Positions 32,700-50,340 are shown, counted from the stretch's first letter. The stretch is 64,000 nucleotides of DNA from Terriglobia bacterium (GCA_020072785.1 JAIQGG010000002.1:1178001-1242000); one strand, 5' to 3'. Notes: generated by a model from the sequence alone, not told the origin. Numbers and translations: made by a program.

Positions 32700-33025
32700 A
32701 GAGGGAAGAGTCATGGCGTAATAGGTCGGGTGCCCCCTCGATTTTGCATGTGGGGATTTTGACTTTGACTTTCTCTCGATTGAATCGCAGTAGGAATTTG
32801 AATCAATTGCCAGGAACCTGAAACGCGAAAACGCCGGACTCCCGACAAGGTCGGGATAAATTCCGCCCGGCCCTTACATGGAGCTGCCGGATGCTCCTCT
32901 TGGACCATCCCAAGTACTTTTCCACCCCGAGCATCCCGTCATGACCAACGCAACCGCCAGTCATTCCGCAACGCCCCCATACCCCCGTCCTCCAGCGGAT
33001 GTATACTTCAAAAAGAGGAGGGTCT
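32700..33025. other. Intergenic region, no gene seen
   Basis: About 325 bases between the toxin gene and amrS. No open frame with family resemblance. The last part holds a TATACT -10 element (33002-33007) and an AGGAGGG ribosome site for amrS. Confidence 0.5.
33002..33007 (+). promoter_or_regulatory. -10 element TATACT of the radical SAM gene
   Basis: TATACT lies 18 bases before the ATG at 33026, with AGGAGGG between, a compact promoter and ribosome site. No clear -35. Confidence 0.5.
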
Positions 33026-34147
33026 ATGGAAGAACTCAAGGTCCTCCAGAAGTCCCCCGCACTCCACGAAGCGCGCTGGTGGGAACCCGAGCCCGAAGGG
33101 CGCGTCCACTGCTACCTCTGCCCGCGGCACTGCCACATTCATCCCGGGCAGGCGGGCTTCTGCTTCATCCGCGTCAACGAAGGCGGCAAGCTCTACAGCC
33201 TGGGCTACGGCGCGCCCGCGGCGCTGCAAATCGATCCCATCGAAAAGAAGCCGTTGAATCATTTTCTGCCCGGGACGCGGATCTTCTCGATGGGCACGGC
33301 GGGCTGCAACATGGGCTGCTTCTTCTGCCAGAACTGGAGCATCTCGAAGTCGCGCAGCGACCAGTCGCGCGCGCAACTGCTGCCGCCGGAGGACGTGGTA
33401 CTGCTGGCGCTGCGCCATGGCTGCCCCTCGATCGCCTTCACCTACAACGAGCCGACCATCTGGGGCGAGTACGTGGTGGACATCTGCGCTGCGGCGAAGG
33501 AGCACGGGGTGAACACGGTGATGGTTACCAACGGGTATGTAACCTACGAAGCCTTCCACGATATTTTCGATCACGTGGACGCCGCCAACGTGGACCTGAA
33601 AGCTTTCACCGAGAAGTTCTACGGCAAGGTCACGCTCACGCACCTCAAGCCGGTGCTGGAGACGCTGCAGTTTCTGAAGAACGAGACCAACCTCTGGTTC
33701 GAGATCACCAACCTGATCATTCCCACGCTCAACGACGATCCGGCGGAGACGCGCCAGCTGGCGGAGTGGGTGGTGGAGCATCTGGGGCCGGACGTGCCGC
33801 TGCATTTCACCGCCTTCCACCCTGCTTTCAAGCTGCAGGATAAGCCGCCGACGCCGCCGGAGACGCTGCACCGCGCGCGGAAGATCGCGCGCGAGGCGGG
33901 GGTGCACTACGTTTACGAAGGAAACATCTACAGCGAGGGCGCGCACACCTACTGCCCGAAATGCGCGGCGCTGCTGATCCGGCGCTCCTGGCACGACGTC
34001 CTGGAAAACAATCTGCGCGACGGCGCGTGCGGGAAGTGCGGGTTGGCCATCGCCGGCCGCTGGGAAAATCCGCACGGGAAGACGGAAAGAAAAGGCCGGC
34101 CCAGAGACGCAGAGATCGCGGAGAAGTACGGCCACTTGAACCTGTAA
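33026..34147 (+). CDS. amrS: AmrS-type radical SAM enzyme (AmmeMemoRadiSam system)
   Basis: 373 aa. The radical SAM cluster motif is CNMGCFFC (C-x3-C-x2-C), preceded by CYLCPRHCHIHPGQAGFC and followed by FTYNEPTIWGEYV, both typical of AmrS/PflA-like activases. A C-terminal zinc-ribbon-like CPKC and CGKC pair is present. AmrS works with MEMO and AMMECR1 proteins in a conserved but poorly understood set; neither partner is in the window. The ATG at 33026 has a strong ribosome site. Confidence 0.9.
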   Translation: MEELKVLQKSPALHEARWWEPEPEGRVHCYLCPRHCHIHPGQAGFCFIRVNEGGKLYSLGYGAPAALQIDPIEKKPLNHFLPGTRIFSMGTAGCNMGCFFCQNWSISKSRSDQSRAQLLPPEDVVLLALRHGCPSIAFTYNEPTIWGEYVVDICAAAKEHGVNTVMVTNGYVTYEAFHDIFDHVDAANVDLKAFTEKFYGKVTLTHLKPVLETLQFLKNETNLWFEITNLIIPTLNDDPAETRQLAEWVVEHLGPDVPLHFTAFHPAFKLQDKPPTPPETLHRARKIAREAGVHYVYEGNIYSEGAHTYCPKCAALLIRRSWHDVLENNLRDGACGKCGLAIAGRWENPHGKTERKGRPRDAEIAEKYGHLNL

Positions 34148-34206: not shown

Positions 34207-35556
34207 ATGGCCGACCGGCATCGCGTGGTGATTCTGGGAGGCGGGTTCGGCGGGCTCCATGCGGCGCAGGCGCTGAAGCGCGCGCCGGTGGACGTGACCC
34301 TGCTGGACCGCCGCAATTTTCATCTTTTCCAGCCGCTGCTCTATCAGGTGGCCACCGGCTCGCTCTCGCCGGGGGAGATCGCCGCGCCGTTGCGCAGCGT
34401 CTTGAGCCGGCAGAAGAACGCGCGCGTGCTGCTGGGCGAGGCGCAGGATGTGGATCCGCAGGCGCGCCGCGTCCTGCTGCGCGACGGAGCGGCCCTCGAA
34501 TACGACACGCTGATTGTCGCGACCGGCTCGGAAGCCTCTTTCTATGGCAACGAGGCCTGGAGCGAATGGGCGCCCAGCCTCAAGACGGTCGAAGACGCCA
34601 CGGCGATCCGGCACAAGATCCTGTACGCCTTCGAGCGGGCCGAACGCGCCGCGAGCGAGGAAGAGGTTCGCGCGTGTCTTACGTTCGTGATTGTCGGAGC
34701 CGGGGCGACGGGTCTGGAGCTGGCCGGGGCGCTGGCGGAAATTGCCCGGCAGACGCTTAAGAATGATTTCCGGCGCATCCGCCCGCAGGAAGCGCAGATT
34801 ATTCTGCTGGAAGGCGGGCCGCGCGTGCTGGCCGCTTTCCCTGAAGATCTTGCCGCGAAGGCGGAGAGTCTGCTCACGCGGTTGGGCGTGCGGGTACTGA
34901 AGAACGTGCAGGTCACGGCGATCGAGCGTGATGGCGTGGTTTACCGGAGCGGGCAGGAAACGGGGCGCATCCAGGCGAGGACCGTCCTGTGGGCCGGGGG
35001 AATTCAGGCGACGGAGTTCGGCAAGAGGCTCGCCGCGCGCACCGGCGCGGAAACCGACCGCAGCGGCCGCATGAAAGTGCTTCCCGACTTGTCGCTGCGC
35101 AATTTTCCCCAGATCTTCGTCATCGGTGATCTAGCTCTGGTGCACCGCGAGGACGGCCAGGCGCTGCCCGGCGTGGCGCCGGTGGCCATGCAGGAGGGCA
35201 GTTACGTCGCGCGCGCCATTCAGAGGCGGCTGGCCGCCGCCCCGCCTCTGCCCGCCTTCCGCTATGCCGACAAGGGACATCTGGCGGTCATCGGGCGGGC
35301 CGCGGCGGTGGCGAATATTTTGGGGATTCATCTCTCCGGATGGCCGGCCTGGCTGGTCTGGCTCTTTATCCATCTGATGTACATCGTCGAATTCCAGAAT
35401 CGCGTGCTGGTCTTTATTCAGTGGGGCTTCGAATATTTGACGTTCAACCGCGGGGCGCGCCTGATCACCGGCGGCACTGCCGCCGATAGCGTGGAGCAGG
35501 AGACCGCCGCGGCGGGCAGCGGCGACTGCGTTGAAAGGAAGCAAACAGACGGTTAA
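34207..35556 (+). CDS. ndh: Type II NADH dehydrogenase (NDH-2)
   Basis: 449 aa. FAD-binding motif VVILGGGFGGLHAA (residues 7-20), NADH-binding motif FVIVGAGATGLELA, the quinone-side sequence PGVAPVAMQEGSYVA, and a C-terminal hydrophobic/amphipathic anchor (WPAWLVWLFIHLMYIVEFQ) place it as a single-subunit, non-pumping NADH:quinone oxidoreductase on the inner membrane face. It follows amrS by about 60 bases and is the first of the redox genes that continue to 47261. Confidence 0.93.
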   Translation: MADRHRVVILGGGFGGLHAAQALKRAPVDVTLLDRRNFHLFQPLLYQVATGSLSPGEIAAPLRSVLSRQKNARVLLGEAQDVDPQARRVLLRDGAALEYDTLIVATGSEASFYGNEAWSEWAPSLKTVEDATAIRHKILYAFERAERAASEEEVRACLTFVIVGAGATGLELAGALAEIARQTLKNDFRRIRPQEAQIILLEGGPRVLAAFPEDLAAKAESLLTRLGVRVLKNVQVTAIERDGVVYRSGQETGRIQARTVLWAGGIQATEFGKRLAARTGAETDRSGRMKVLPDLSLRNFPQIFVIGDLALVHREDGQALPGVAPVAMQEGSYVARAIQRRLAAAPPLPAFRYADKGHLAVIGRAAAVANILGIHLSGWPAWLVWLFIHLMYIVEFQNRVLVFIQWGFEYLTFNRGARLITGGTAADSVEQETAAAGSGDCVERKQTDG

Positions 35557-35652
35557 GCCGGACTCGGAAGGTAGTGAAGGAAGGACATGCGGAATCCCCG
35601 GCGGGCGGAGGATGAAGGTGGCCGTGTGTTAAAATCCGCGCCGAGGGCTGCC

Positions 35653-37608
35653 ATGACCACGGACAAAGACCGCATGCTGGGGATGGACCGCAATATCACG
35701 CGGCGTGATCTTCTGAATGGATTTGCGCTGGCCGCGGGCGCGGCGCTTGTGCCGGGGGCCATTTTCGGGGCGTTCGATCCCGTGGGCGCGGCGGAGGGCG
35801 GTGCATCGTATTACCCGCCGGCGCTGACCGGAATGCGCGGCAGCCATCCCGGTTCGTTCGAGGTCGCGCACAGCATGCGCGACGGCACGTTTTGGGAGAA
35901 GGCCGGAAAGCCCGAGGATACGGGCGAGCACTACGACCTGGTGATCGTTGGCGGGGGCCTGAGCGGGCTGGCCGCGGCGCATTACTATCGCAAAGCCGCC
36001 GGCGCCGATGCCAAGATCCTGATCATCGAGAATCACGACGATTTTGGCGGGCATGCCAAGCGCAACGAATTCCAGGCGGGAAAAGCATTCCGCCTCGGTT
36101 TTGGCGGCACCTTTTCGATTGAAAGCCCGGCGCCGTACAGCGCGGTGGCCAAGGGGTTGATCGCCGAGTTGGGCATCGATGTTCCGGGCTTTTCAAAAGT
36201 TTATGATCCGAAGATCTATTCCACCCGGGGGATGAGCCAGGGGATGTTCTTCGACAAGGAAACCTTTGGCGCGGACCGTCTGGCGTCTCTGCCCACGGCC
36301 GGAGGGATGGATTCCCAGGCGAAGTTCGGGGCGATGGCGTCGGAAGAGTTTCTGGCGCAGGCGCCGCTTTCCGCTGCGGCGAAAAAGGACCTGGCGCGGC
36401 TGATCAGCGAAAATAAGGACTATCTGCCCGGGCTTAGTTCCGCGGAGAAGAAGGCCAAGCTGGCGCGGATCAGCTACGCGGATTTCCTGACGAAGATCGC
36501 GGGCGTGGACCCGAGCGTGGTGAAAGTGTTTCAGACCATGCTGCACGGGCTGTACGGCTACGGCATGGACGCGGTGCCGGCGCAAGACGCCTGGGGCTTC
36601 AGCTTCCCCGGGTTTGCGGGGATGAATCTGGACCCGGCGCCGGGCAAAGGCATGAACCGCGATTCCATTCCCAATGAAGAGGCGGAGAAGTATTTCTTTC
36701 ACTTTCCGGACGGCAACGCGACGATCGCGCGGCTGCTGGTGCGCGGCCTGATCCCCGCGGCGATTCCGGGAAAGACGGTGGACGACGTAATTCTGGCGCG
36801 CGCGAATTACGCGCGGCTGGACGAAGCTTCCTCGGCGGCGCGCATCCGGCTGAACAGCACGGCGGTGCGGGTGAAGCATGTGGGAGAGGCGAAATCGGCG
36901 AAGGAAGTGGAGGTGGTTTACGCGCGCGAAGGCAAGGCGCACACCGTGCGCGGGGCCAACTGCGTACTGGCCTGCTGGCACGTGGTGATCCCGTACATCT
37001 GCGAGGAGCTGCCGGCGGCGCAAAAAGCAGCGCTGGCCGATTCGGCCAAGGTGCCCATCGTCTACACCAACGTGCTGCTGCGGGACTGGAAAGCGTTCGA
37101 GAAACTCGGCCTCTCCGCGGTGAACGCGCCGGGGAGTTACTTCAGCAGCTTCCAGCTGGACATGCCGGTGAGCATGGGAGGTTACGAGTGCGCGAAGTCA
37201 CCGGAGGAGCCCATCGTGGTGCACATGATGCGCACGCCGTGCCGGCCGGGGCGCTCGGGGCGGGAACAGCACCTGGCGGGGCGCGCGGAGCTGTTCCGCA
37301 CGACGTTTGAAACGTTTGAGCGCAACATCCGCGAACAGCTTGGGCGCACGCTGAGCGGCGGGGGCTTCGACCCGGCGCGGGACATCGCGGCCATTACCGT
37401 CAATCGCTGGCCGCACGGCTACGCCTACCAGTACAACTCGATCTACGACCGCTTCTGGCTGGAGGGCGGGGAGCTGCCCTGCGAAGCGGCCCGGAAACCC
37501 TACGGGCGCATCACCATCGCCAATGCCGACGCCGATGCCTACGCCTACACCGACTGCGCGATAGACCAGGCGTACCGCGCAGTAGAGGAGCTGCGCGCCC
37601 GCGCGTAA
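35653..37608 (+). CDS. Tat-exported FAD amine-oxidase-like protein (spermidine dehydrogenase type)
   Basis: 651 aa. A twin-arginine signal (ITRRDLLNGFALAAGAALV) directs the folded flavoprotein to the periplasm. The FAD motif DLVIVGGGLSGLAAAHYY lies near residue 95, with FGGHAKRNEF following, as in bacterial spermidine dehydrogenase and related flavin oxidoreductases. The substrate is not certain; oxidation of an amine with transfer of electrons to a cytochrome would fit, because the next gene encodes a 23-haem cytochrome. ATG at 35653 follows GAGGG; a TAAAAT site lies about 20 bases upstream. Confidence 0.82.
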   Translation: MTTDKDRMLGMDRNITRRDLLNGFALAAGAALVPGAIFGAFDPVGAAEGGASYYPPALTGMRGSHPGSFEVAHSMRDGTFWEKAGKPEDTGEHYDLVIVGGGLSGLAAAHYYRKAAGADAKILIIENHDDFGGHAKRNEFQAGKAFRLGFGGTFSIESPAPYSAVAKGLIAELGIDVPGFSKVYDPKIYSTRGMSQGMFFDKETFGADRLASLPTAGGMDSQAKFGAMASEEFLAQAPLSAAAKKDLARLISENKDYLPGLSSAEKKAKLARISYADFLTKIAGVDPSVVKVFQTMLHGLYGYGMDAVPAQDAWGFSFPGFAGMNLDPAPGKGMNRDSIPNEEAEKYFFHFPDGNATIARLLVRGLIPAAIPGKTVDDVILARANYARLDEASSAARIRLNSTAVRVKHVGEAKSAKEVEVVYAREGKAHTVRGANCVLACWHVVIPYICEELPAAQKAALADSAKVPIVYTNVLLRDWKAFEKLGLSAVNAPGSYFSSFQLDMPVSMGGYECAKSPEEPIVVHMMRTPCRPGRSGREQHLAGRAELFRTTFETFERNIREQLGRTLSGGGFDPARDIAAITVNRWPHGYAYQYNSIYDRFWLEGGELPCEAARKPYGRITIANADADAYAYTDCAIDQAYRAVEELRARA

Positions 37609-37748
37609 TTTTTCCGGGCGTGCATTCTTGGCAACAATTCCGCGGGGATTGTCATCCAACCGGCGGACTCCCATGCTAGCCTCAGCGTACCCACCCTCTT
37701 GTACGACAAATGCCAGGTGAGCTTTTGCGCCGATCAAAACTTCCGCGA

Positions 37749-39671
37749 ATGCGTTTCCTGCTCGCGTGCCTGCCGGTGATTGCGGCGGGGCAGCTGCTGG
37801 GCGCTCCGGCGGCGCCGGCGCAGATCTCTCCCGGGCCGCTTTCGAAAGCGCACCAGTCACTGAGCGGGGCGACGCAGTGCACCAGTTGCCATGTGCTGCG
37901 CATGGGCTCGGCGGAGCTAAAGTGCCTGGACTGCCATACGGAGATTGCGCGGCGGCTGCGCGAGCATCGCGGGCTGCACGCCGCGGTGGTCCAGGATGCG
38001 GCGCCGGGCAAGGAGTGCGCGCGTTGCCATTCCGAGCATAACGGAGAGGATTTCCAGCTCATTCACTGGGAGACCCCGCTGGCGTCGTTTGACCATCGCA
38101 AGACCGGGTACGCGCTGGAAGGGAAGCACGCCGCGCTGGATTGCAAGCGCTGCCACACCGCGGAACACATCACGGCGGAAGAGCGCAGCCAGATCCGCAT
38201 GAAGGACCTGGGGCGCAGCTGGCTGGGGCTGACGCGCGATTGCGTAAGCTGCCACAAGGACCCGCACAGCGGGCATCTGGGCAACAACTGCACGCAGTGC
38301 CACAACTTCACGGACTGGAAAGCGGGAGCGCAATTCGATCATTCCAAGACGCGTTTTCCGCTGACCGGGCTGCACGTGCGGGTGGCCTGCGCCAAATGCC
38401 ACGTTTCCGGGGGGCCGGAGGGAAAGGCGCAGTACAGCGGGCTGGCGTTTGCGGCTTGCGCGGACTGCCACAAAGATCCGCATCGCGGGGCCTTTCGGCA
38501 GGCCTGCGAGGCATGCCACAGCACGGAGGGCTGGCGGCAGGTGCGCCTGGGACAGACCTTCGATCACGCCAAGACGGCGTATCCGCTGCTCGGCAAGCAT
38601 CAGGAAGTGGGCTGCGTAAAGTGCCACGGGGGAGCGGATTTTCACAAGCCGCTCGCGCATACCCTGTGCGCCGATTGCCACAAGCCCGATCCACACCAGG
38701 GGCAGTTCCGGGAGCGCGCGGGAGGCGGCGACTGCGCGGGGTGCCACACGGTCAATGGCTTCAAGCCTTCCACGTTCGGCGTGAAGGAACACGGCACCTC
38801 GCAGTATCCGCTGGCGGGCAAGCACGCCGAGGTGGCCTGCGCGAAATGCCATCTGCCGGCGGGCGCGGCGACGCTCTACAAGATCAAGTTCGAGCGCTGC
38901 CTGGATTGCCACAGTGATGTGCATCGCGGGCAGTTCGCGGCGGCGCCGTATCTGGGGAAGTGCGAAAGCTGCCATACCGTCGAGGGATTCCACCCGGCGA
39001 AGTTCACCCTGGCGCAGCATGCGAAGACGCGCTTTCCGCTGGAAGGCGCGCACCCGGCGGTGGTCTGCAAGGATTGCCATCGCGAAGAGTCGATCAACGG
39101 GGAACGCACGGCGCGCTATCGCTTCGAGGACCGCACCTGCACGGCCTGCCACAAAGATCCGCACGAAGGGAAATTCCGCTCCTGGATGGAGCGCGTGCGC
39201 AGCGACGGCACGCGCGCGGGATGCCGGGCCTGCCATTCGCTGCAGTCCTGGAGGGACGCCGCGGGATTTGACCACTCGACGACGAAGTTTGCGCTGACCG
39301 GAGCGCACCGCGGAGTGGCCTGCTCCGGGTGCCACAAGCCCAGCGGGGCGGAAGCCGCGGCGCGCGAACTGGCCTTCCGCACGGCGCCGACGGTGTGCAG
39401 CGAGTGTCACGCGGATCCGCACGGCGGGCAATTTGCGCGCGGTGGCAAGGCTACGGATTGCACCGGCTGCCACAGCACGGCGAAATGGGTTCCCTCGCGT
39501 TTCGATCACGAGCGGAATACGGTATTCCCGCTGAAGGGGGCGCACGAGCGCGTTTCCTGCGGTTCCTGTCACAAACTTGTGGAAGAGAGAGACGGGAAAA
39601 ACGTGCTCCTGTACAAGCCGACCCCGAAGGCTTGCGTGGAATGCCACGGGGACCGAGAGTTCCCCAATTAG
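37749..39671 (+). CDS. 23-haem c-type cytochrome, exported
   Basis: 640 aa from the ATG at 37749 (an in-frame ATG at 37710 would lengthen the leader). The signal peptide MRFLLACLPVIAAGQLLG is followed by 23 CXXCH haem sites from end to end. Repeated landmarks are CHKDPHxG(H/A/K)F and FDHxKTxFPLxGxH, which provide extra His as distal ligands. It resembles the next gene in the FDH-KT-FPL-G-H motif, so both derive from one module. A periplasmic or surface electron conductor is likely. Confidence 0.92.
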   Translation: MRFLLACLPVIAAGQLLGAPAAPAQISPGPLSKAHQSLSGATQCTSCHVLRMGSAELKCLDCHTEIARRLREHRGLHAAVVQDAAPGKECARCHSEHNGEDFQLIHWETPLASFDHRKTGYALEGKHAALDCKRCHTAEHITAEERSQIRMKDLGRSWLGLTRDCVSCHKDPHSGHLGNNCTQCHNFTDWKAGAQFDHSKTRFPLTGLHVRVACAKCHVSGGPEGKAQYSGLAFAACADCHKDPHRGAFRQACEACHSTEGWRQVRLGQTFDHAKTAYPLLGKHQEVGCVKCHGGADFHKPLAHTLCADCHKPDPHQGQFRERAGGGDCAGCHTVNGFKPSTFGVKEHGTSQYPLAGKHAEVACAKCHLPAGAATLYKIKFERCLDCHSDVHRGQFAAAPYLGKCESCHTVEGFHPAKFTLAQHAKTRFPLEGAHPAVVCKDCHREESINGERTARYRFEDRTCTACHKDPHEGKFRSWMERVRSDGTRAGCRACHSLQSWRDAAGFDHSTTKFALTGAHRGVACSGCHKPSGAEAAARELAFRTAPTVCSECHADPHGGQFARGGKATDCTGCHSTAKWVPSRFDHERNTVFPLKGAHERVSCGSCHKLVEERDGKNVLLYKPTPKACVECHGDREFPN

Positions 39672-40025
39672 ACGAGGGCGAGTACCCGCGGATCCCTAAA
39701 GAGCCTTCGCGAAAAATCTACACAGAGTGTGGAAAACCTTCCCGCAACTTGTTTCCGTACAACAGGTTTGCAGGGAAAAGCGCCTCGCTTGTCCGGAATT
39801 TCCGAGCTTGCTGAGAGCCTGTCTGGGGGCAATTTTGCCTGTTACAGCAAATTCATAAACCGAGAACAACCAATGGCCGATGGAATGCAACAGAAGTCTC
39901 TAGATAACAGGTCGGTAAGGGCTCGGACAGGCCGGCTCCGGAATAGCTTGAGGACGTTGGACGGATACTGTCCCTGCGGTCAGTTACGCGGCGCGCCCAA
40001 GCCTCGTAACATAATTTGAAGTTCG
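39672..40025. other. Intergenic region between the two cytochrome genes
   Basis: About 350 bases, less GC-rich than the genes either side. I looked for a cyclic-di-GMP (GEMM) riboswitch, which precedes cytochrome genes in Geobacter, and did not find its conserved core. No gene is evident; the length leaves room for a promoter, so the second cytochrome may be separately controlled. Confidence 0.45.
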
Positions 40026-42218
40026 GTGGAAGCCACTTCCGGTCTGTGTGCGAGGTGCGTCTCTTTGGCGACAGGTCTGCCACTCCTGCTGCAGCTGTTG
40101 TTGTTTCTGCTGGGTCAGCCCGGTATGGCACAGGCGCGCCCGGAAGTGCCGCAAGTCTCCGCGCGCAATCCGCACGGGCCGCTGACGATTCCTTGCGAGA
40201 ACTGCCACACGTTCACGAGCTGGAAGCCCATCCGCAGCGTTCCAGAGTTCGATCATAGCCACACGCGCTTTCCGCTGCGCGGCATGCACGAAGGGGTGCG
40301 CTGCCGGCAGTGCCACGTCCTCGAAGTATTCAGCAATATCGGGTCGCGCTGCTCGGATTGCCATGCGGACCTGCATCGCGGGCAGTTCGGGGCGCGCTGC
40401 GAGCAGTGCCACACGGTGAAGGGCTGGAGCGTGGCGGTCAAAGCGGTGCAGAACCATCAGAACCGCTTCCCGCTGGTCGGGGCCCATGCGGTGGTCGATT
40501 GCGAAAGCTGCCACCGCGGAGGAGCGACCGGGCAGTTTAGCGGACTGCCCACCGACTGCGTGTCCTGCCACAGCAAGGACTACCAGGGCGCCAAGGGGCC
40601 GGACCATCAGGTGCTGGGTTTTCCCACCACCTGTCAGGTTTGCCATTCCATGAGCAGCTGGTTCGGGGCGTCGTTTGACCATTTGGGCTTCACGGGATAC
40701 GCGCTCACGGGGGCCCATGCCAGGCTGGATTGCCTGGCCTGCCACGTCGGGGGCCAGTTCAAGGGCACGCCGGCGAATTGTTACGCGTGCCACGCCAAGG
40801 ACTATAACGCGACGCAAGACCCCAATCACGCGCAGGCCGGGTTTCCGACGGATTGCGGCACCTGCCACACCACGGCGAGCTGGGCCGGGGCCAAATTTGA
40901 CCACAACACGTTCACGAAATTTCCGCTGACGGGTGCGCACGTCAACGTGCCATGCTCGCAATGCCACGTCAACGGGAAATACGCGGGGACGCCAACGGAC
41001 TGCGCGGCGTGCCACCTGCCGGATTACCAGAAAACGACGAACCCGAATCACGTGCAGGGCGGATTTCCGCAGACGTGCGACGTCTGCCATAACACGACGG
41101 CGTGGCAGCCGGCGAGTTACGATCACAACAAGACCGCGTTTCCGCTGACGGGGGCGCACGTCAACGTGCCGTGCGCGCAGTGCCATATCAACGGCAAGTA
41201 TGCGGGAACACCGACGGACTGCGCGGCGTGCCACTTGCCTGATTACCAGAAGACGACGAACCCCAATCACGCGGCGGCGGGATTCCCGCAGACGTGCGCC
41301 GTCTGCCACAACACCGCGGCGTGGCAGCCGGCGATCTTCGACCACAGCAAGACGGTGTTTCCGCTGACGGGGGCGCACGTCAATGTGGCCTGCACGCAGT
41401 GCCATATCAATGGGAAGTACGCGGGCACGCCGACGAACTGCGCCGCATGCCATCTGACCGACTACCAGAAGACGACCAACCCGAATCACGCGGCGGCCGG
41501 GTTCCCGACAGATTGTTCGCTGTGCCATTCCACGGCGTCGTGGGCGGGGGCGACGTTCAATCACAACCAGACGCAGTTTCCGCTGACGGGGGCGCACGTC
41601 AACGCGGCCTGTTCGCAGTGCCACAGCAGCGGAGTGTACAAGGGGCTGAGCACGGACTGCGTCTCGTGCCACCTGCAGAACTACAACAGCACCACGAATC
41701 CCAACCACGTGGCGGCAGGTTACCCGCAGCAGTGCAACATTTGCCACAACACCACGGCGTGGCAACCGGCGACGTTCGATCACAGCAAGACGGCGTTTCC
41801 GCTGACCGGGGCGCACGTGAGCGTGCCGTGCGCGAGCTGTCACATCGCCGGGGTCTATGCCGGGACGCCGACGGACTGCTATTCCTGCCACAAGAAGGAA
41901 TATCAGAGCACCACCGACCCCAACCACGTGGCCGCGGCGTTTCCGACGACCTGCCAGACCTGCCACACGACGTCGAGCTGGCTGGGGGCGACGTTCAATC
42001 ACACCTGGTTCCCGATCTATTCGGGGACGCACCAGGGGAAGTGGACGACGTGCGCCGACTGCCACGTCAATTCCGCGAACTACGCGGCGTTTTCCTGCAT
42101 CACCTGCCACACCCATGCCCAGTCGAATGTGGATCCGCAGCATTCCGGCGTGAGCGGGTACGCGTACAGCGCGACAAGCTGTTACTCCTGCCACCCGCAG
42201 GGAGTCGCGGGGAATTGA
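40026..42218 (+). CDS. 28-haem c-type cytochrome with 73-residue tri-haem repeats
   Basis: 730 aa from a GTG at 40026 (start uncertain; a TTG at 40065 would also leave the signal helix LATGLPLLLQLLLFLLGQ). It has 28 CXXCH sites. From residue about 177 the protein is six near-identical modules of 73-74 aa, each with three CXXCH and three extra His (in PNH, FDH or FNH, and GAH), enough for bis-His ligation of three haems. The final CXXCH is 12 residues from the end. No membrane anchor besides the leader. It probably forms an extended haem wire in the periplasm or through the outer-membrane barrel encoded next. Confidence 0.92.
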   Translation: MEATSGLCARCVSLATGLPLLLQLLLFLLGQPGMAQARPEVPQVSARNPHGPLTIPCENCHTFTSWKPIRSVPEFDHSHTRFPLRGMHEGVRCRQCHVLEVFSNIGSRCSDCHADLHRGQFGARCEQCHTVKGWSVAVKAVQNHQNRFPLVGAHAVVDCESCHRGGATGQFSGLPTDCVSCHSKDYQGAKGPDHQVLGFPTTCQVCHSMSSWFGASFDHLGFTGYALTGAHARLDCLACHVGGQFKGTPANCYACHAKDYNATQDPNHAQAGFPTDCGTCHTTASWAGAKFDHNTFTKFPLTGAHVNVPCSQCHVNGKYAGTPTDCAACHLPDYQKTTNPNHVQGGFPQTCDVCHNTTAWQPASYDHNKTAFPLTGAHVNVPCAQCHINGKYAGTPTDCAACHLPDYQKTTNPNHAAAGFPQTCAVCHNTAAWQPAIFDHSKTVFPLTGAHVNVACTQCHINGKYAGTPTNCAACHLTDYQKTTNPNHAAAGFPTDCSLCHSTASWAGATFNHNQTQFPLTGAHVNAACSQCHSSGVYKGLSTDCVSCHLQNYNSTTNPNHVAAGYPQQCNICHNTTAWQPATFDHSKTAFPLTGAHVSVPCASCHIAGVYAGTPTDCYSCHKKEYQSTTDPNHVAAAFPTTCQTCHTTSSWLGATFNHTWFPIYSGTHQGKWTTCADCHVNSANYAAFSCITCHTHAQSNVDPQHSGVSGYAYSATSCYSCHPQGVAGN
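40554..41873 (+). repeat. Six tandem 219-222-base units within the cytochrome gene
   Basis: Units begin at 40554, 40776, 40998, 41217, 41436 and 41655. The middle ones (40998 to 41435) are closest, sharing long stretches of identical bases, which points to recent duplication or gene conversion; a partial seventh follows. Confidence 0.85.
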
Positions 42219-42228
42219 TGAGCAGCGC

Positions 42229-43932
42229 ATGAGATCCGGCGCGGTTATGGTGGCGCTGCTTTTCCTGGCGGGGGCGGGCGCCGCGCAGCAAAAGAGCGAG
42301 ACCTCTCCGGTGTTCCATGTGAAATACGTGGCCGAGGGCATCGTTTATCTCGACGCCGGGCGCAACGCGGGGCTGGCCGAGCATCAGGTGCTAAAGATTG
42401 TGCCGCCGGCGGCGGGCGCAGGGGCCAGCCGCGGCGAGCAACTGCAAGCCGAGGAAATCGCGACGATCGAGGTCAGCGCGCTGGCGGATGCCTCGGCGGT
42501 TTGCGAGATTGTGACGTCCACGCGCCCGCTGCGCGCCGGCGACGTGGCCATCCTTCCCCCGGGGACGGAGGCCGCGGCGGCACCGGCTTCGGCGGGAGTA
42601 GCGCGACCGTACCTGCAGGTGCTTTCCTTCACAACCGGGGATCCTCTGGACGAAGAGGTGCGCGAAGCGTTGCCGCGGCAACGGCCGCTGCCGGAGATCA
42701 ACCGCGCGCGCGGACGAATTGGGGTGGAATACAGCTCGGTGTACGGGCGCGGAAGCACCGCTTCGAGCAACTCCGAACTGGGGCTGGTGCTGCGCGCGGA
42801 CATGACGCGGCTCGGGGGCAGTTACTGGAATTTCAGCGGCTACTGGCGCGGGCGGCTGAATCACCATTCCGGCTCGCAGCCGCAGACGATCAACGATCTC
42901 ATCAATCGCACGTACCAGCTCAACTTTGTTTACAACAACCCGTATTCCTCGCTGGTGGCGGGAGCGGGCCGCCTGTACTTGCCGTGGGCCAGCAGCCTGG
43001 ACGCGATAGACGGGGGCTACGCCGGACTGCGCACCTTCAATGGGATGATCGCGGGAGTGTTCGCGGGCTCCACGCCCGACCCCGCCTCCTGGGACTACCA
43101 GCCGGACCGGCGGATCGGGGGACTTTTCGTGAACCTCGAGCGCGGGCGGTTTGAGGGCCTGCACCTGATCAGCACGGGGGGCGTGGCCATTTCGACGATC
43201 GGCTGGCGCGCGGAAAGGCAGTTCGGGTTTGCGGAAAACACGCTGAGCTATAAACGCTGGGTAACGCTGTACCACTCGATGCAGGTGGATCTGCCGCATA
43301 CCTACACGGCCGCCAATCCCGCCAACCCGGCGACCCCGATCGCCACCACGTATGGGGGAATCAACCGCAGCTACCTGACGCTGCGCTTTCAGCCGCACCC
43401 GCGCCTGGCCTTCGATTTGAATCACAGCTATTTCCGGGGCATGCCGACGTTCGACCCGGTGCTGATCGGCACCGGGCTGCTGGACAAATATCTGTTCCAG
43501 GGTTTGAGCGGGGGGGTGCGCGCGGAAGTGGTGCGGCACGTCACGCTGTACACCAGCATCGGGCGCAGCAACCGGACGGGGGATACCAAGCCTTCCTGGA
43601 ATCAGATGTACGGGATCACCCTCGGCAGGGTCCTGAACACGGCGTGGCGCGCCGATCTGCGCTATTCGCGCTTCGACAGCGTGATCGGGCAGGGAAGTTA
43701 CGAGTCGCTCTCGCTCTCCCGGCAATTGCGGGAAGATCTGCGCTGGGAAGCGCAGGCCGGCTTTCAGCGGCTGAATTCGCTGAATGCCACGAGCGCCACT
43801 TCGCATTTCGCCACTACGCAGATGGACTGGTCGCCCGGGCGGCATCTCTTCCTGCAGGGAGGATTCACCTGGCAGCGCGGCGGGCTGGTGAACTACGACC
43901 AGCTCTTATTCGTGGTGGGAGAGAGGTTTTAG
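42229..43932 (+). CDS. Outer-membrane beta-barrel protein of the cytochrome cluster
   Basis: 567 aa. Signal peptide (MRSGAVMVALLFLAGAGAAQ), then a small N-terminal beta domain (VYLDAGRNAGLAEHQVLKIV, about residues 38-60), then alternating amphipathic strands from residue about 160 to the end, finishing in Phe (VVGERF) as outer-membrane barrels do. It starts 10 bases after the 28-haem gene. Position and fold suggest a pore that houses or docks the cytochrome, a role like MtrB or Geobacter OmbB, although no sequence similarity to those is visible to me. Confidence 0.78.
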   Translation: MRSGAVMVALLFLAGAGAAQQKSETSPVFHVKYVAEGIVYLDAGRNAGLAEHQVLKIVPPAAGAGASRGEQLQAEEIATIEVSALADASAVCEIVTSTRPLRAGDVAILPPGTEAAAAPASAGVARPYLQVLSFTTGDPLDEEVREALPRQRPLPEINRARGRIGVEYSSVYGRGSTASSNSELGLVLRADMTRLGGSYWNFSGYWRGRLNHHSGSQPQTINDLINRTYQLNFVYNNPYSSLVAGAGRLYLPWASSLDAIDGGYAGLRTFNGMIAGVFAGSTPDPASWDYQPDRRIGGLFVNLERGRFEGLHLISTGGVAISTIGWRAERQFGFAENTLSYKRWVTLYHSMQVDLPHTYTAANPANPATPIATTYGGINRSYLTLRFQPHPRLAFDLNHSYFRGMPTFDPVLIGTGLLDKYLFQGLSGGVRAEVVRHVTLYTSIGRSNRTGDTKPSWNQMYGITLGRVLNTAWRADLRYSRFDSVIGQGSYESLSLSRQLREDLRWEAQAGFQRLNSLNATSATSHFATTQMDWSPGRHLFLQGGFTWQRGGLVNYDQLLFVVGERF

Positions 43933-44763
43933 ATGGGCGGAGCGTGGAAGCGCGAAGCGCGGGGATGGCAGGCGCTGGCTGTCGCGGCTCTTTTGGCCGG
44001 GCTCTGGTCGCTTCCGCTGCGTCTGAGCGCGCAGGAGCCGCCGGCAAGCGCGGCCGACGGCGCTCTTCTGCGGCGCGCCGGGTCCGCCGCGGAAGAGCTC
44101 ATCACGAACCTGAGTATGGTCCGGTACATCGAGCACGTATCGCAGTACAAGCTGCGCAGCAACGGGAAGCCGGAGTATCAGCAGGAGGCTTTCTTCGATT
44201 CGCTGATGCTGGTACACGTGAAAGACGGGCGCATGAGCGCCGAGGAATCGCTGCAGGCAGAGAAGCCAGCGGTGCGTTTTGAGCAGCGCCCGCTGCTTAC
44301 CACCAGCGGCTTTTCAACACTGGCTCTGATCCTGCATCCCTACTACGAGCCGAGCTTCCGCTTTACTCCGCTGGCGGAGGAAGTGGTGGAAGGGCAGCGC
44401 TTCCTGCGCCTGCATTTCGAGCACGTGAAGGGCGCGGACTCCCCCACGGTTCTGCGCCTGCGCAATCGCGATTATCCCATCGGGCTTTCCGGGACGGTGT
44501 GGCTCGACGCCCAGAGCGGGGCGGTGGCGCGCATCACCGGGGAGCTGGCGGAGCCGCTGGACGATATCGGGCTGCACAGCCTGAGCTGCGACGTGCGGTA
44601 TGCCTCCGTCGAGCTGCAGAAAACGCCGGAGAAACTGTGGCTGCCGGTTTCGGCCACGGTGGACCTGGAAACACCGCGCCAACACTGGCGCAATGTGCAC
44701 GTTTTTTCCGGCTACCGGCGATATTCCGTGGACGTGCACGTGGGACCAGGAGGAACGCCATGA
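43933..44763 (+). CDS. Exported LolA-like protein of the cytochrome cluster
   Basis: 276 aa with an N-terminal signal helix (ALAVAALLAGLWSLPLRLSAQ). The mature part is mostly beta-strands (YIEHVSQYKLRSNG, FRFTPLAEEVVEGQRFLRLHFEHV, GTVWLDAQSGAVARITGEL), the pattern of LolA/LolB or outer-membrane lipoprotein-sorting folds. It starts directly after the barrel stop codon and its own stop overlaps the next start (ATGA), so it is tightly bound to the cluster. It may help place the barrel or a lipidated part. Function not proven. Confidence 0.68.
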   Translation: MGGAWKREARGWQALAVAALLAGLWSLPLRLSAQEPPASAADGALLRRAGSAAEELITNLSMVRYIEHVSQYKLRSNGKPEYQQEAFFDSLMLVHVKDGRMSAEESLQAEKPAVRFEQRPLLTTSGFSTLALILHPYYEPSFRFTPLAEEVVEGQRFLRLHFEHVKGADSPTVLRLRNRDYPIGLSGTVWLDAQSGAVARITGELAEPLDDIGLHSLSCDVRYASVELQKTPEKLWLPVSATVDLETPRQHWRNVHVFSGYRRYSVDVHVGPGGTP

Positions 44764-45707
44764 GCTCGATTGCCACAAGCCCAGCCGCCAGCGCCGCCCA
44801 GATGCGGCGCCCAGGTGTGGCGCTGCACAATTTTCTACTGTACGTGTTGGTGATCGCCGGCGCCGCGCTGACGCTGGGGCTGATGATCTACGGAGCGAAC
44901 TACTACACGCTGGACCAGGCGCATCGCGCGTTGTCTCCCAAGCATGCGTATCTGAAGCCGAGCGGAATGATCGGTATCCGTCTGGGGCTTCTGGGGGTGG
45001 GTCTCTTCTTGTGTCTTTTCCTCTACGCCATCCGCAAAAGCTGGAAATGGCTTTCGAAGGTGGGGAATTCGCGGCACTGGCTGAACTTCCACGTGGTTCT
45101 GGGCGTTCTGGCGCCGGTGGTCATCACGTTTCATTCCTCGTTCAAGTTCCGGGGACTGGCGGGGATCGCCTACTGGATCATGATCGCGGTAGCGATCAGC
45201 GGATTTATCGGACGCTACATTTATGCGCAGATCCCGCGCAGCCTGGGTGCGGCCGAGGTGTCCATGAAGGAGCTGCGCGAGGAGAGTGCGCGCCTGGCGG
45301 AGAGGCTCAAGGCGCAGGAAGTGCTGGCACCCGAGGATTTCGCTGCGCTGCTGCGGCTGCCGTCGCCGGCCGAGGTGCAGTCCATGTCCTCGCAGGAGGT
45401 GCTGTGGCTGATGCTGCGCTTCGACGTGGCGCGGCGCTGGGGCATCGCCGAACTGCGCCGAAAAGCGCTGCGTTCGTTCGGCGGGAACGCGGTCCTGTGG
45501 GGCATGATCCGTTCGCACCATCCCCAGGTGGAGAGCGTAATCGACTGCCTGAACGAAGAGGCCTATTTGAACAAGAAAGCGCTGTTCCTGTCCAAGGCCC
45601 AGGAGCTGTTCCAGCTGTGGCACGTCGTGCACCGGCCGTTTAGTTATTCCTTCGTCGTCCTCGCGTCTATTCACATTGCCGTGGTCCTGCTCCTGGGTTA
45701 TTTTTGA
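44760..45707 (+). CDS. Four-helix membrane protein, predicted di-haem b cytochrome
   Basis: 315 aa, four membrane segments (about 26-46, 74-92, 108-126 plus 135-153, and 293-313) with a long soluble loop (160-285). Two helices carry His pairs 14 residues apart: His111/His125 (HVVLGVLAPVVITFH) and His291/His305 (HRPFSYSFVVLASIH). This H-x13-H spacing is how ferric reductases, NADPH oxidases and bc1-type cytochrome b hold two stacked haems across the bilayer. It would carry electrons from cytoplasm or quinol to the periplasmic cytochromes. Translationally coupled to the LolA-like gene. Confidence 0.75.
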   Translation: MSSIATSPAASAAQMRRPGVALHNFLLYVLVIAGAALTLGLMIYGANYYTLDQAHRALSPKHAYLKPSGMIGIRLGLLGVGLFLCLFLYAIRKSWKWLSKVGNSRHWLNFHVVLGVLAPVVITFHSSFKFRGLAGIAYWIMIAVAISGFIGRYIYAQIPRSLGAAEVSMKELREESARLAERLKAQEVLAPEDFAALLRLPSPAEVQSMSSQEVLWLMLRFDVARRWGIAELRRKALRSFGGNAVLWGMIRSHHPQVESVIDCLNEEAYLNKKALFLSKAQELFQLWHVVHRPFSYSFVVLASIHIAVVLLLGYF

Positions 45708-45719
45708 GCGGGCGTTAGT

Positions 45720-45746
45720 GTTGACCGCTCTGCGGTCACGCATACA
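45720..45746 (+). repeat. Palindromic repeat element, copy 4
   Basis: GTTGACCGC TCT GCGGTCACGC ATACA ends on the base before the ATG at 45747. TTGACC and TACAAT (45743-45748) are 16 bases apart, a promoter-like pair with the palindrome between. There is no ribosome site outside the repeat. Confidence 0.75.
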
Positions 45747-47261
45747 ATGGATACGTTCCTCACGGTGCTGGTCGCCTCGCTGGTGACGCTGTTTTTCGTC
45801 CGCGGCTATCTGAAGAAGCTGACGGCGAAGAAACCGGCGCGTCCGGCGGGCACGGCCCATGCGGCGGCGGGCGCGCCAGGCGCGGTTGCCGCGAAAACGA
45901 TTGCCTGCCCGCGCTGCGGCAAGGCCATCGGGGAATCTTCCGCGTTTTGCTCGCACTGCGGGGCGGCGCTGGCCATGTGGAGCGTGCACCGCGCCGCGGT
46001 GAACGCCCCCAGCGGAGGAGCCAAGGGCAAGCCGAAGCCGGTGATCAACGCTTCGCTGTGCATCGGCTGCGGTTCGTGTATTGAAGCCTGCCCGGAGACG
46101 GGGGCCCTGGAACTCGTCGGTGGCAAAGCCATCCTTGCTCACCCGGACCGCTGCACCGGCCACGCCAAGTGCGCGGAAGTCTGCCCCACGCAGGGCATCC
46201 TCTACTCCTACGACGGCGCGCTGCAGACCGTGCGCGTGCCGCTGGTGAAGGAAAACTTCGAGACCAACGTGCCGGGAGTCTTCATCGTGGGCGAGCTGGG
46301 AGGCATGGGGCTCATCAAGACGGCGGTGAACGAAGGCAAGCTGGTGATGGATCACGTGCATAAGCGCGTGGGAAAAACCGCCAAGCCGGCTGCGCATGGG
46401 CACGAAGAGGCGCCCGCCGAAGCCGCGAGGCCGGACGAAGTCCGCGACGTTTTGATCGTCGGCGCGGGCCCCGCGGGTCTGAGCGCGGCCCTGACCGCGC
46501 ACCAGTACGGATTGAATTACCTGGCCATCGAGCAGGGGGAGATCGCTTCCACGATTCGCCACTATCCCCGGCAGAAATTCCTGATGGCGGAGCCGCTGGA
46601 GATTCCGCTCTACGGGCCGCTGTATGTAAGCGACGGCACGAAGGAGGCGCTGCTCTCGGTATGGGAGACGATTGTGGCGAATACCGGGGTGCGCGTGCAG
46701 ACCAACGAGCGCGTGGAGCGCGTGGCGCGCAACACGGGCGGCTTCGTCGTGGAGACCTCTAAGGGCCAGTATCATGCGAAGAACGTGATCCTGGCCCTGG
46801 GCCGCCGCGGGACGCCGCGCAGCCTGGGTGTGCCGGGGGAGGATCTGGCCAAGGTGGCCTATGCGCTGATCGAGGCCGAGAGCTACGAGAACAAGGACAT
46901 CCTGATCGTGGGGGGCGGCGATTCGGCGGTGGAGTCGGCGGTGGGTCTCAGCAAGCACAAGCGGAATCGCGTGACGCTCTCCTATCGCGGCGAAAACTTT
47001 CAGCGCGCCCGCGAGCGCAATCAGAAATTCATCGCCGAAGCCGAGGCGCAGGGGCAGCTGAACGTGCAGCGCAGTTCCCAGTTGCGCGAAATCCGCGAAA
47101 AGTCCGTGGTGCTCGAAGTGGCCGGGAAGACCGTGGAGATTGCCAACGACTACGTCTTCATCCTGATCGGCGGAGTTTCCCCCGAGGAGTTTCTCAAGAA
47201 AACGGGGATTGAAATCGTGGAAAAGTCGCTGGCCGTGGCCGCCGACCGGTCGTTCAGCTGA
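45747..47261 (+). CDS. Membrane-anchored Fe-S flavoprotein with permuted TrxR/YpdA-like domain
   Basis: 504 aa. N-terminal membrane anchor (residues 2-19), zinc ribbon (Cys54, 57, 68, 71), two ferredoxin sites (Cys105, 108, 111, 115 and Cys136, His139, Cys142, Cys146), then a thioredoxin-reductase-like domain: FAD motif VLIVGAGPAGLSAA at 235-248 and NAD(P)H motif ILIVGGGDSAVESA. The redox CxxC of thioredoxin reductases is absent, as in YpdA. The segment FETNVPGVFIVGELGGMG (171-188), which normally closes the FAD domain at the C-terminus, precedes it here, so the fold seems circularly permuted. It probably passes electrons from NAD(P)H via FAD and Fe-S to the haem b protein encoded just upstream. 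Confidence 0.8.
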   Translation: MDTFLTVLVASLVTLFFVRGYLKKLTAKKPARPAGTAHAAAGAPGAVAAKTIACPRCGKAIGESSAFCSHCGAALAMWSVHRAAVNAPSGGAKGKPKPVINASLCIGCGSCIEACPETGALELVGGKAILAHPDRCTGHAKCAEVCPTQGILYSYDGALQTVRVPLVKENFETNVPGVFIVGELGGMGLIKTAVNEGKLVMDHVHKRVGKTAKPAAHGHEEAPAEAARPDEVRDVLIVGAGPAGLSAALTAHQYGLNYLAIEQGEIASTIRHYPRQKFLMAEPLEIPLYGPLYVSDGTKEALLSVWETIVANTGVRVQTNERVERVARNTGGFVVETSKGQYHAKNVILALGRRGTPRSLGVPGEDLAKVAYALIEAESYENKDILIVGGGDSAVESAVGLSKHKRNRVTLSYRGENFQRARERNQKFIAEAEAQGQLNVQRSSQLREIREKSVVLEVAGKTVEIANDYVFILIGGVSPEEFLKKTGIEIVEKSLAVAADRSFS

Positions 47262-47382
47262 CGGGAAGAACGGCGCCCGAGCGCTTTTCCGCCGCGCGGT
47301 ATCTCTCTCCTTGCCTTGCGCTCTGATATACACTCTTTGATCGAAGCATCTGTTTCTTTTGGCTCCGACCACCGGAGGCCCC

Positions 47383-48030
47383 ATGCACGACGACCTCTAC
47401 CCCGCGCTGCGGCAGTGCATCATCGACGGAGATCCCGAGCAGGCAAAAGAGATCTGCCAGCGTGCGCTGGCCGCGGGCATGGCCCCGCTGGACGCCATCA
47501 ACGAAGGGCTGGTGCCGGGACTGAACCACGTGGGCGAGCAGTTCGCGCAGGGGGAGATGTTTCTGCCGGACCTGGTGATGGCCGGGGAAGCGATGAAGGC
47601 GGCGACGGCGATTCTGGAACCGGCCATGCAGAAGGCGGGCGCGCGCCGCGAAACGCTGGGGAAAGTCGTGCTGGGCACGGTCCAGGGCGACATCCATGAA
47701 ATCGGGAAGACGCTGGTAGGCACGATGCTCTCCGCCAGCGGTTTCGAGGTGCACGACCTCGGCGTGGACGTGCCCTTCGATACGTTCGCCGTGAAGGCAA
47801 GGGAACTGAACGCCGACATCGTGGGAGTTTCCGCACTGCTCACCACCACGATGACCGGGCAGAAGAACGTGGCGGAGGCGCTGGAGCGGAACGGGCTGCG
47901 CCCGCGGGTGAAGATCATCGTGGGCGGCGCGCCGGTCACGCGGGGCTGGGCGGAGGAGATCGGCGCGGACGGCTACGGGGAAGATGCGCTGGCGGCGGTG
48001 GCGCTGGCGAAGGCGCTGGCCGGGAAGTGA
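47383..48030 (+). CDS. Corrinoid (B12-binding) methyltransferase protein
   Basis: 215 aa. N-terminal helical cap (LYPALRQCIIDGDPEQAKEICQRAL) and a B12 Rossmann domain with the lower-ligand motif GDIHEIGKTLVG (D-x-H-x2-G), then VSALLTTTM and IVGGAPVT. This is the MtbC/MttC/MtgC type of methyl-carrying corrinoid protein. It is directly followed by an MttB-family methyltransferase, its likely partner. GGAGG precedes the ATG at 47383; a TGATATACA extended -10 lies about 55 bases upstream. Confidence 0.92.
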   Translation: MHDDLYPALRQCIIDGDPEQAKEICQRALAAGMAPLDAINEGLVPGLNHVGEQFAQGEMFLPDLVMAGEAMKAATAILEPAMQKAGARRETLGKVVLGTVQGDIHEIGKTLVGTMLSASGFEVHDLGVDVPFDTFAVKARELNADIVGVSALLTTTMTGQKNVAEALERNGLRPRVKIIVGGAPVTRGWAEEIGADGYGEDALAAVALAKALAGK

Positions 48031-48069
48031 TCCGGCGGGCGTGTGTGAAGGTGTAACGGTGGACGAGCG

Positions 48070-49524
48070 ATGCAGCCAAAACTGGAAATTCTGGAACGCG
48101 AGCTGATCGAACGAATACTGGGCGAAGCTTTAGCGCTCATTGCCGAGCCCGGCGTCAAAGTGCAGGCGCAGGCCGCGGTGGAGTTACTGGCCGGGGCGGG
48201 GGCGCGCGTCGAGGAGGGCATTGCACACATTCCGGAAGCGCTGGCGCGGCAGGCGCTGGCTTCAGCGCCGCGCGAGTTCTTCCTGCACAACCGCGGCGGG
48301 GAGCCGGTGGTGCGCTACGGGGGCGACGCGGTGCAGTTCGATCCGGGGTCGTCGTGCGTGCACATCCTGGATCCCGCGACGCTCCAGCACCGCATGACGC
48401 AGGCGGCCGACTTGGTGCGGCTGGTGCAAGTGGCGGAGATGCTGCCGCAGTATGCGGCGCAGTCCACCGCGGTCGTATGCAATGACGTGCCCAAGGAGAT
48501 CGGCGATCTGTACCGGCTTTTCCTGGTGCTGCTGCATTCGAACAAGCCGATCGTCACCGGGGCATTTGCGGCGCACACGGTGCCGCTGATGATCGACCTG
48601 CTGGCGGCGGACAGCGGGGGGCGCGAAGCGCTGCGGGGCAGGCCACGCGCGGTGTTCGACGTATGCCCCTCGCCGCCGCTGAACTGGTCGGATTTCGCGG
48701 GGCAGAATCTAGCGGACCTGGCGCGCGCGGGTGTGCCGGCGGAGGTGGTGTCCGTGCCGCTGGCGGGCGCGGCGGCTCCGGTGACGCTGGCGGGCACGGT
48801 GGTGCAGCACGCGGCGGAGTGCATTAGCGGAATCGTGATCCACCAACTGGCGCAGCCCGGAGCGCCGGTGGTGTGGGGCGGGGCGCCGGCTATTTTTGAC
48901 ATGCGCAGCGGGATTACGGCGATGGGGGCGGTGGAAACGGCGATGCTGAATGTGGCCTGCGCACAGGTGGGCAAACATCTGGGGCTGCCGACGCACGGGT
49001 ATCTCACCGGCAGTGACGCCAAGGTGATGGATGCGCAGGCGGGCCTGGAAAGCGGAGTGGCGGCGCTGATGGGCGCGCTGGGCGGGATCAACATGATATC
49101 GGGGGCGGGGATGCTGGACTCGCTGGCGTGCCACAGCCCGGAAAAACTGGTGCTGGACGCGGAAACCATCGCCATGGCGCAGCGTGTGCGCGCCGGGATC
49201 CAGCCGCGCGGGGAGTCGCTGGCGCTGGCCATGTTCGCGCAGGCCGGCTTGCGCGGGGAATTTCTGAAGCTTCCGGAGACGCGCAGGCTTTTTCGCAGCG
49301 AGCAGCATTTGCCTTCCAGCGTGATCGACCGCGGGTCGCTGCACGCGTGGGAGCAGAACGGAGCGAAAGATATGTTCGCGCGGGCGCGGGAACGGGTGAC
49401 GGAACTGCTGGCGGCGTACCGGCGGCCGGCGCTTGCGGCGGAGGTCGAGAGGGAATTGAAAGCCATTGTTGGGGAGCAGGGCAGGCGGGCGGGGATGGAG
49501 CAACTGCCCGGGCTGGGAGTGTGA
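48070..49524 (+). CDS. MttB-family (non-pyrrolysine) methyltransferase
   Basis: 484 aa, the full family length without an internal amber codon, so it is of the MtgB-like group that demethylates quaternary amines (glycine betaine, proline betaine, carnitine and similar) rather than trimethylamine. Landmarks: EPGVKVQAQAAVELLAGAGA, FDPGSSCVHILDP, PTHGYLTGSDAKVMDAQAG and GINMISGAGMLDS. It would move a methyl group to the corrinoid protein encoded 40 bases upstream. The specific substrate cannot be told from sequence alone. Confidence 0.9.
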   Translation: MQPKLEILERELIERILGEALALIAEPGVKVQAQAAVELLAGAGARVEEGIAHIPEALARQALASAPREFFLHNRGGEPVVRYGGDAVQFDPGSSCVHILDPATLQHRMTQAADLVRLVQVAEMLPQYAAQSTAVVCNDVPKEIGDLYRLFLVLLHSNKPIVTGAFAAHTVPLMIDLLAADSGGREALRGRPRAVFDVCPSPPLNWSDFAGQNLADLARAGVPAEVVSVPLAGAAAPVTLAGTVVQHAAECISGIVIHQLAQPGAPVVWGGAPAIFDMRSGITAMGAVETAMLNVACAQVGKHLGLPTHGYLTGSDAKVMDAQAGLESGVAALMGALGGINMISGAGMLDSLACHSPEKLVLDAETIAMAQRVRAGIQPRGESLALAMFAQAGLRGEFLKLPETRRLFRSEQHLPSSVIDRGSLHAWEQNGAKDMFARARERVTELLAAYRRPALAAEVERELKAIVGEQGRRAGMEQLPGLGV

Positions 49525-49529
49525 GCGGA

Positions 49530-50297: not shown

Positions 50298-50298
50298 A

Positions 50299-50318: not shown

Positions 50319-50340
50319 ATGACCGATTCGCCTTGCTGTT

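Follow-up and report, generated by a model that had tools for sequence, protein, structure and literature searches.

A conserved six-gene module in Terriglobia with the features of a proposed NAD(P)H-driven electron conduit across the cell envelope

Which genes around two giant multihaem cytochromes in a Terriglobia genome belong together, and could their products carry electrons from the cytosol to the cell exterior? The window analyzed here, a stretch of 64,000 nucleotides (GCA_020072785.1, JAIQGG010000002.1:1178001-1242000), belongs to a genome of 3.73 Mb with a completeness of 98.9% that encodes numerous further multihaem cytochromes outside the locus. An earlier note on this DNA had combined eight genes into one candidate for a complete trans-envelope system. 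All eight were present at the position and on the strand given there, and a recount of the CxxCH motifs returned the same 23 and 28 haems for the two cytochromes. As a system, the six genes from 37749 to 47261 stood (Table 1), whereas the other two had to be taken out: the gene for NDH-2 is missing here even from L037, a relative with a haem-b protein that is 93% identical, and the Tat-exported flavoprotein is a homologue of spermidine dehydrogenase (E 2e-162) that adjoins the block only in the nearest relatives. The gaps between the six genes are, in order, 354, 10, 0, -4, and 39 bp, so that instead of several ATGA overlaps there is just one, at 44760-44763. The first four proteins of the block carry a Sec-type signal stretch as judged by eye and by hydropathy, and no lipoprotein signal was seen in them by the same means.

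Table 1. Features of the six-gene block and of the gene directly upstream; positions count from the first nucleotide of the window.
Feature	Position	Strand	Remarks
Tat-exported spermidine dehydrogenase homologue	35677-37608		Immediately precedes the 23-haem cytochrome gene in the nearest relatives
23-haem c-type cytochrome	37749..39671	+	640 aa, Sec signal; 23 CxxCH; proposed periplasmic wire
28-haem c-type cytochrome	40026..42218	+	730 aa, Sec signal; 28 CxxCH; proposed outer/extracellular wire, length variable
Tri-haem tandem repeats in the 28-haem cytochrome	40632..42035	+	CxxCH spacing 33-16-25 / 32-16-25, repeating
Outer-membrane beta-barrel with small N-terminal beta domain	42229..43932	+	AlphaFold2 model; full-length homologue in Emticicia
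Secreted periplasmic protein, earlier named LolA-like	43933..44763	+	Only in Terriglobia; positionally conserved
Di-haem b membrane protein, weakly ferric-reductase-like	44760..45707	+	Four invariant His; five hydrophobic segments; proposed inner-membrane crossing
Membrane-anchored 2[4Fe-4S] / FAD-NAD(P) oxidoreductase, YpdA/TrxR core circularly permuted	45747..47261	+	Pfam Fer4 and Pyr_redox_3; proposed cytosolic electron entry
Ferredoxin motifs CxxCxxCxxxCP and CxxHxxCxxxCP in the Fe-S/flavin protein	46059..46184	+	Alignment of 23 homologues

The question of which genes form a unit needs to consider their distribution in other genomes. When 299 genomes of the class were searched, about 54 had a full-length orthologue of the haem-b protein, with 43 to 100% identity, and these orthologues were clearly separate from weak, ferric-reductase-like matches. 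When 40 Terriglobia neighbourhoods of these orthologues were fetched and compared, the same six genes recurred, mostly in unchanged order: 20 of the 40 loci had exactly the gene order of the window, and in most of the others a contig end interrupted the block or the Fe-S/flavin gene was inverted nearby. Two independent searches, one with the haem-b protein and one with the Fe-S/flavin protein as query, found both genes in 52 of the 299 genomes, one of them only in 2 and 3, and neither in 242, which corresponds to a Fisher P of 6e-52, a value that ignores shared ancestry. Other Acidobacteriota families have adjoining module genes in a shuffled order, for instance haem b, Fe-S/flavin, 23-haem cytochrome, and second cytochrome. 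That the genes keep company despite the reshuffled order is good evidence for a functional unit. The search of other genomes for the block had been suggested in the earlier note, for which barrel and haem-b homologues scattered away from the cytochromes would have refuted the proposal. The opposite was seen: the genes lie side by side in the roughly 54 genomes, and these two adjoin the cytochromes in nearly every locus examined.

Outside the Acidobacteriota, the spread of the module is known from a plasmid collection, in which a tblastn search returned a sole full match, plasmid pEMTOL02 of Emticicia oligotrophica DSM 17448 (Bacteroidota). The order there is ccsA, the haem-b gene (annotated as "hypothetical"), the Fe-S/flavin gene, the 23-haem cytochrome, a 40-haem cytochrome, and the barrel (again "hypothetical"), with ccsA, a cytochrome c assembly gene, adjoining the module. 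The barrel homologue is full length and was found with 144 bits by a profile that included the other Acidobacteriota families; a profile built from Terriglobia only missed it. A search of viral contigs gave one weak partial match. With the same neighbours in many genera and in a second phylum, conservation of the block is far above chance, and the six genes from 37749 to 47261 are one real, conserved, and transferable module. Upstream on the same plasmid (3848-8470, opposite strand), genes for a Rieske protein, two beta-barrel proteins, and proteins with YceI-family and c-type cytochrome domains may be part of another redox cluster.

Two of the 40 Terriglobia loci, L059 and L070, are devoid of the barrel and the second cytochrome and have kept the genes for the 23-haem, haem-b, and Fe-S/flavin proteins, so that a subset of the genes can function where the barrel is absent. 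In a further locus (L048, G018:C61), each cytochrome gene is broken into two reading frames, encoding 19 plus 4 and 23 plus 5 haems; this is a decayed or mis-sequenced copy. No additional partner recurred throughout: beside the block, 6 to 9 loci had a sensor kinase and a sigma-54 response regulator, 8 had a small lipoprotein, and 4 had a TPR protein. The kinase and the sigma-54-type regulator, found near the block in L050, L051, L057, L076, and others, possibly regulate it.

The two cytochromes differ in how their haem number behaves. In an alignment of 41 homologues of the 23-haem cytochrome, the Emticicia protein included, 20 CxxCH motifs were invariant and the remaining three, which form one tri-haem repeat, were present in 93% of the sequences. 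Exactly 23 histidine residues outside these motifs were conserved in the same alignment, and the three of these present in 93% are part of that repeat, which the other sequences have lost. All haems can therefore be bis-His ligated, and the protein would be a pure wire in which no haem looks free for catalysis. The haem count was mostly 23 in the homologues, with 20 or 24 in some outside the Terriglobia, and such a constant number would suit a fixed distance, plausibly that of the periplasm. The DmsE/MtrA decahaem model TIGR03508 scored 65 bits at a cut-off of 192, and there are cytochrome stretches in common with NrfB-type electron carriers.

The 28-haem cytochrome has a tri-haem period of 73 to 74 residues, and its homologues range from 18 to 64 predicted haems, mostly differing by multiples of three. 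The number was 1 mod 3 in 26 of 31 apparently complete homologues, as it is for the 40 haems of the Emticicia protein, and the 33-16-25 motif spacing stayed regular even in the 64-haem homologue. Each homologue checked offered at least one extra histidine per haem. The MtrC-type model PF22113 exceeded its cut-off of 30 with 48 bits, with matches scattered across the repeats of a protein that has 28 haems and no visible lipoprotein signal. This second cytochrome may protrude outward with a reach set by the number of tri-haem repeats, but it could also be periplasmic. By sequence, there were essentially no relatives with a solved structure for either cytochrome.

For the barrel, an AlphaFold2 model built with 31 homologues contained 22 long strands and a small N-terminal beta domain, with a mean pLDDT of 77.5, which is moderate confidence. 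Structure searches with Foldseek and VIA-align matched the model to outer-membrane barrels, the best match being to the class of 22-strand siderophore receptors (Z 17.7, rmsd 5.3 over 347 residues), and the 22-strand model thus speaks for the outer-membrane barrel assumed previously. Searches against Pfam (E<=0.1) and NCBIfam gave no family, MtrB/PioB included, and no convincing solved relative was found by sequence. Known porin-cytochrome barrels were absent among the structural matches shown, which says little. The LolA-like protein had no match in Pfam, NCBIfam, or PDB sequences; its gene was in place in nearly all Terriglobia loci and was found neither in the other Acidobacteriota families nor in the module of pEMTOL02 from Emticicia.

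The haem-b protein was predicted to be a di-haem b membrane protein, and this prediction agrees with five predicted membrane segments and four invariant histidines. Residues H111, H125, H291, and H305 were conserved in 22 of 22 aligned sequences and form two pairs, H111/H125 and H291/H305, each 14 residues apart, on two membrane helices; the Emticicia copy has the same pairs, as judged by eye. The haem-b protein of the window contains no CxxCH motif and has, by sequence, essentially no relatives with a solved structure. The two His pairs with a spacing of 14 on two membrane helices resemble those of ferric reductases and NOX enzymes, in contrast to which the protein stays under the Pfam cut-off (PF01794, Ferric_reduct, E 3e-4, 21.2 bits, cut-off 28), has no fused flavin domain, and carries a long non-membrane insertion before the last helix.

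The Fe-S/flavin protein combines a membrane helix at its N-terminus with two ferredoxin-type cluster motifs and a YpdA-like FAD/NAD(P) core in permuted form, in agreement with the membrane-anchored Fe-S/FAD oxidoreductase that had been proposed. Since its single membrane helix is followed by lysines, the body of the protein should be cytosolic. Residues 234-493 correspond to residues 5-272 of YpdA (E 1.4e-36), and residues 168-186 to residues 277-295, the latter match not being significant alone. This swapped order means that the end of the FAD domain has been moved to the front, a circular permutation, which is kept in both subtypes of the protein. The permuted core also occurs in longer proteins elsewhere in the class and is thus not confined to this system. 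The YpdA model TIGR04018 gave 180 bits at a cut-off of 340, and the structural neighbours were YpdA, thioredoxin reductases, and TrxR-type ferredoxin-NADP+ reductases. With YpdA, a bacillithiol disulfide reductase, and the TrxR-type ferredoxin-NADP+ reductases, the protein shares an FAD/NAD(P) fold without a redox CxxC in the NAD(P) domain; it differs from them by the permutation and by the fusion to a membrane helix and a 2[4Fe-4S] domain. The protein is conserved over 23 homologues, in all of which, and also in Emticicia, the second cluster motif CxxHxxCxxxCP has a histidine at the position where cysteine is usual. The second cluster is possibly a His-ligated 4Fe-4S cluster.

To understand the biological meaning of the module, these features can now be read in the order of a possible electron flow. 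With a probability of about 0.6, the six genes encode a self-contained, NAD(P)H-driven outward conduit to an extracellular acceptor, for which we infer the direction, NAD(P)H as the donor, the site of each cytochrome, and the acceptor. The cytosolic, membrane-anchored flavoprotein would oxidize NAD(P)H, a use suggested by its homology, and its two Fe-S clusters would relay the electrons to the di-haem b protein. Two stacked haems b would carry them across the inner membrane to the 23-haem cytochrome, which would span the periplasm. The exit would be through or at the 22-strand barrel, from where the electrons would reach the second cytochrome; this cytochrome would protrude outside, and its reach would differ between species by added tri-haem repeats. 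Most likely, the electrons end on an extracellular acceptor, which may be Fe(III) minerals, humic quinones, or another cell.

Evaluation of this reading needs to consider that many carriers of the module are probably aerobes, which counts against export; the host itself can probably respire oxygen, since two haem-copper oxidase matches above the cut-off were found in its genome. Electrons might instead flow inward through the barrel to cellular acceptors, with Fe(II) outside the cell, reduced humics, or another cell as their source. In principle, multihaem conduits can run either way, homologues of MtrA function in the oxidation of Fe(II) in other species (PMC3669403), and many carriers may be aerobes, but the cytosolic partner is an NAD(P)H-type flavoprotein and electron transfer from high-potential donors to NAD(P)+ needs energy, for which the module provides no coupling element, so that this direction is quite unlikely. 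A system against redox stress, which would export electrons from NAD(P)H under micro-oxic conditions to remove oxygen, peroxide, or excess reductant, is improbable: although the combination of di-haem b and flavin resembles the layout of NADPH oxidases and ferric reductases and the carriers probably include aerobes, the 23-haem protein has no haem site of the peroxidase type, and no catalase or peroxidase gene was seen to recur beside the block.

The cytochromes may also serve mainly as a periplasmic store or buffer for electrons, next to a barrel with another use such as the uptake of iron chelates. Neither cytochrome looks like a lipoprotein and their extracellular site is a predicted one, the best matches of the barrel are of siderophore-receptor size, and the two loci without barrel and second cytochrome would fit. 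This explanation is nevertheless unlikely, given that the barrel model has no plug domain of the TonB-receptor type, that barrel and second cytochrome are neighbours in all but a few loci and in both phyla, and that length varies in only one of the two cytochromes. The earlier note had named a reductase for nitrogen or sulfur oxides as an alternative, for which the NrfB-type, carrier-like stretches of the 23-haem protein could be cited. Haems and conserved distal histidines are, however, matched one to one in that protein, leaving none of the 23 open for a substrate, and the block contains no molybdopterin or sirohaem subunit; a terminal reductase is strongly disfavoured and highly improbable.

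An outward conduit of this kind has to be compared with known systems, and the view that the architecture differs from MtrCAB, Pcc, and Cbc as one trans-envelope electron system held in every test run. The encoding of a periplasmic multihaem cytochrome, an outer-membrane barrel, and a further multihaem cytochrome together is shared with MtrCAB and PioAB. In contrast to these, the barrel is not of the MtrB_PioB family, the periplasmic cytochrome has 23 haems instead of 10, and the second cytochrome is a variable tri-haem-repeat protein. The block also has its own inner-membrane entry in place of a quinol oxidase such as CymA, and whereas the quinol-oxidizing entries CymA, ImcH, and CbcL have c-type haems, there are none on the haem-b protein. 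The host genome contains a single PF11854 (MtrB/PioB) match, at C1:286161 and away from the block. There, within C1:280000-299999 (L141), a true MtrB/PioB porin (272 bits) adjoins a 10-haem cytochrome of MtrA size and cytochromes with 9, 5, 19, and 13 haems, likely an MtrCAB-type conduit with giant outer cytochromes. Because the MtrB locus is a separate one elsewhere in the genome, the six-gene block is a second, different conduit beside it in the host organism. A full-length MtrB/PioB match was absent from 43 of the 54 genomes with the module, which is therefore not an accessory of MtrCAB.

With the Pcc (OmbB-OmaB-OmcB) and ExtABCD systems of Geobacter, the module shares a porin together with periplasmic and outer cytochromes. 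To our knowledge, an NAD(P)H module is absent from the Pcc and ExtABCD gene sets. The Pcc cytochromes have 8 and 12 haems (PMC4245776), against 23 and 18 to 64 in the module. The available text on a porin-multihaem cytochrome cluster of Verrucomicrobia from soil and bog (PMC5615132) likewise places multihaem cytochromes next to a novel porin, for which at least 20 transmembrane strands are predicted, but gives 8 haems for the periplasmic cytochrome and reports no haem-b or Fe-S/flavin partner. By the tests run on the sequences, the module would work like a porin-cytochrome system and is a member of neither MtrCAB nor Pcc. For Acidobacteria, mtrA- and mtrB-like genes without complete operons have been described (PMC5900883), and porin-cytochrome complexes have been reported for a Holophaga (PMC7399161). 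A large-scale scan for multihaem cytochromes counted many unnamed neighbourhoods (PMC11475568) and could include this block. Neither a published description of the six-gene block nor an isolate linked to it was found in the literature searched, with preprints and most subscription papers outside the search.

Taken as a whole, the proposal of a widespread, transferable extracellular electron machine that bypasses the quinone pool, leading from NAD(P)H via the permuted ferredoxin-flavoprotein and the di-haem b protein to a fixed 23-haem wire, a new barrel family, and a tunable wire of up to 64 haems, is a tentative one, slightly short of an even chance. Acidobacteria are among the commonest soil bacteria. 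If the proposal is true, it explains how soil acidobacteria without Mtr or Omc operons reach extracellular acceptors, and if the entry from NAD(P)H is real, such conduits can be powered differently, without use of the quinone pool. The pair of a cytochrome with a constant 23 haems and one of variable length would be a natural experiment on how a wire is fitted to the geometry of the envelope, and deletion could put the block, as a concrete candidate, to the test.

The surroundings of the block in the window contain further genes. The Tat-exported flavoprotein might feed periplasmic electrons into the wire; a terminator-like hairpin lies behind its gene at 37592-37607, and such matches barely exceed the expectation from shuffled sequences. 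Downstream (47359-51255), a corrinoid protein that was checked by profile, an MttB-like open frame of large size, and a frame resembling homocysteine methyltransferase on the other strand form a putative methyl-transfer cluster, the corrinoid protein and the MttB-like frame of which also follow the block in L004 and L037. Further upstream, at 32999-34147, a radical SAM enzyme of the AmmeMemoRadiSam system is encoded (NCBIfam, 466 bits at a cut-off of 220).
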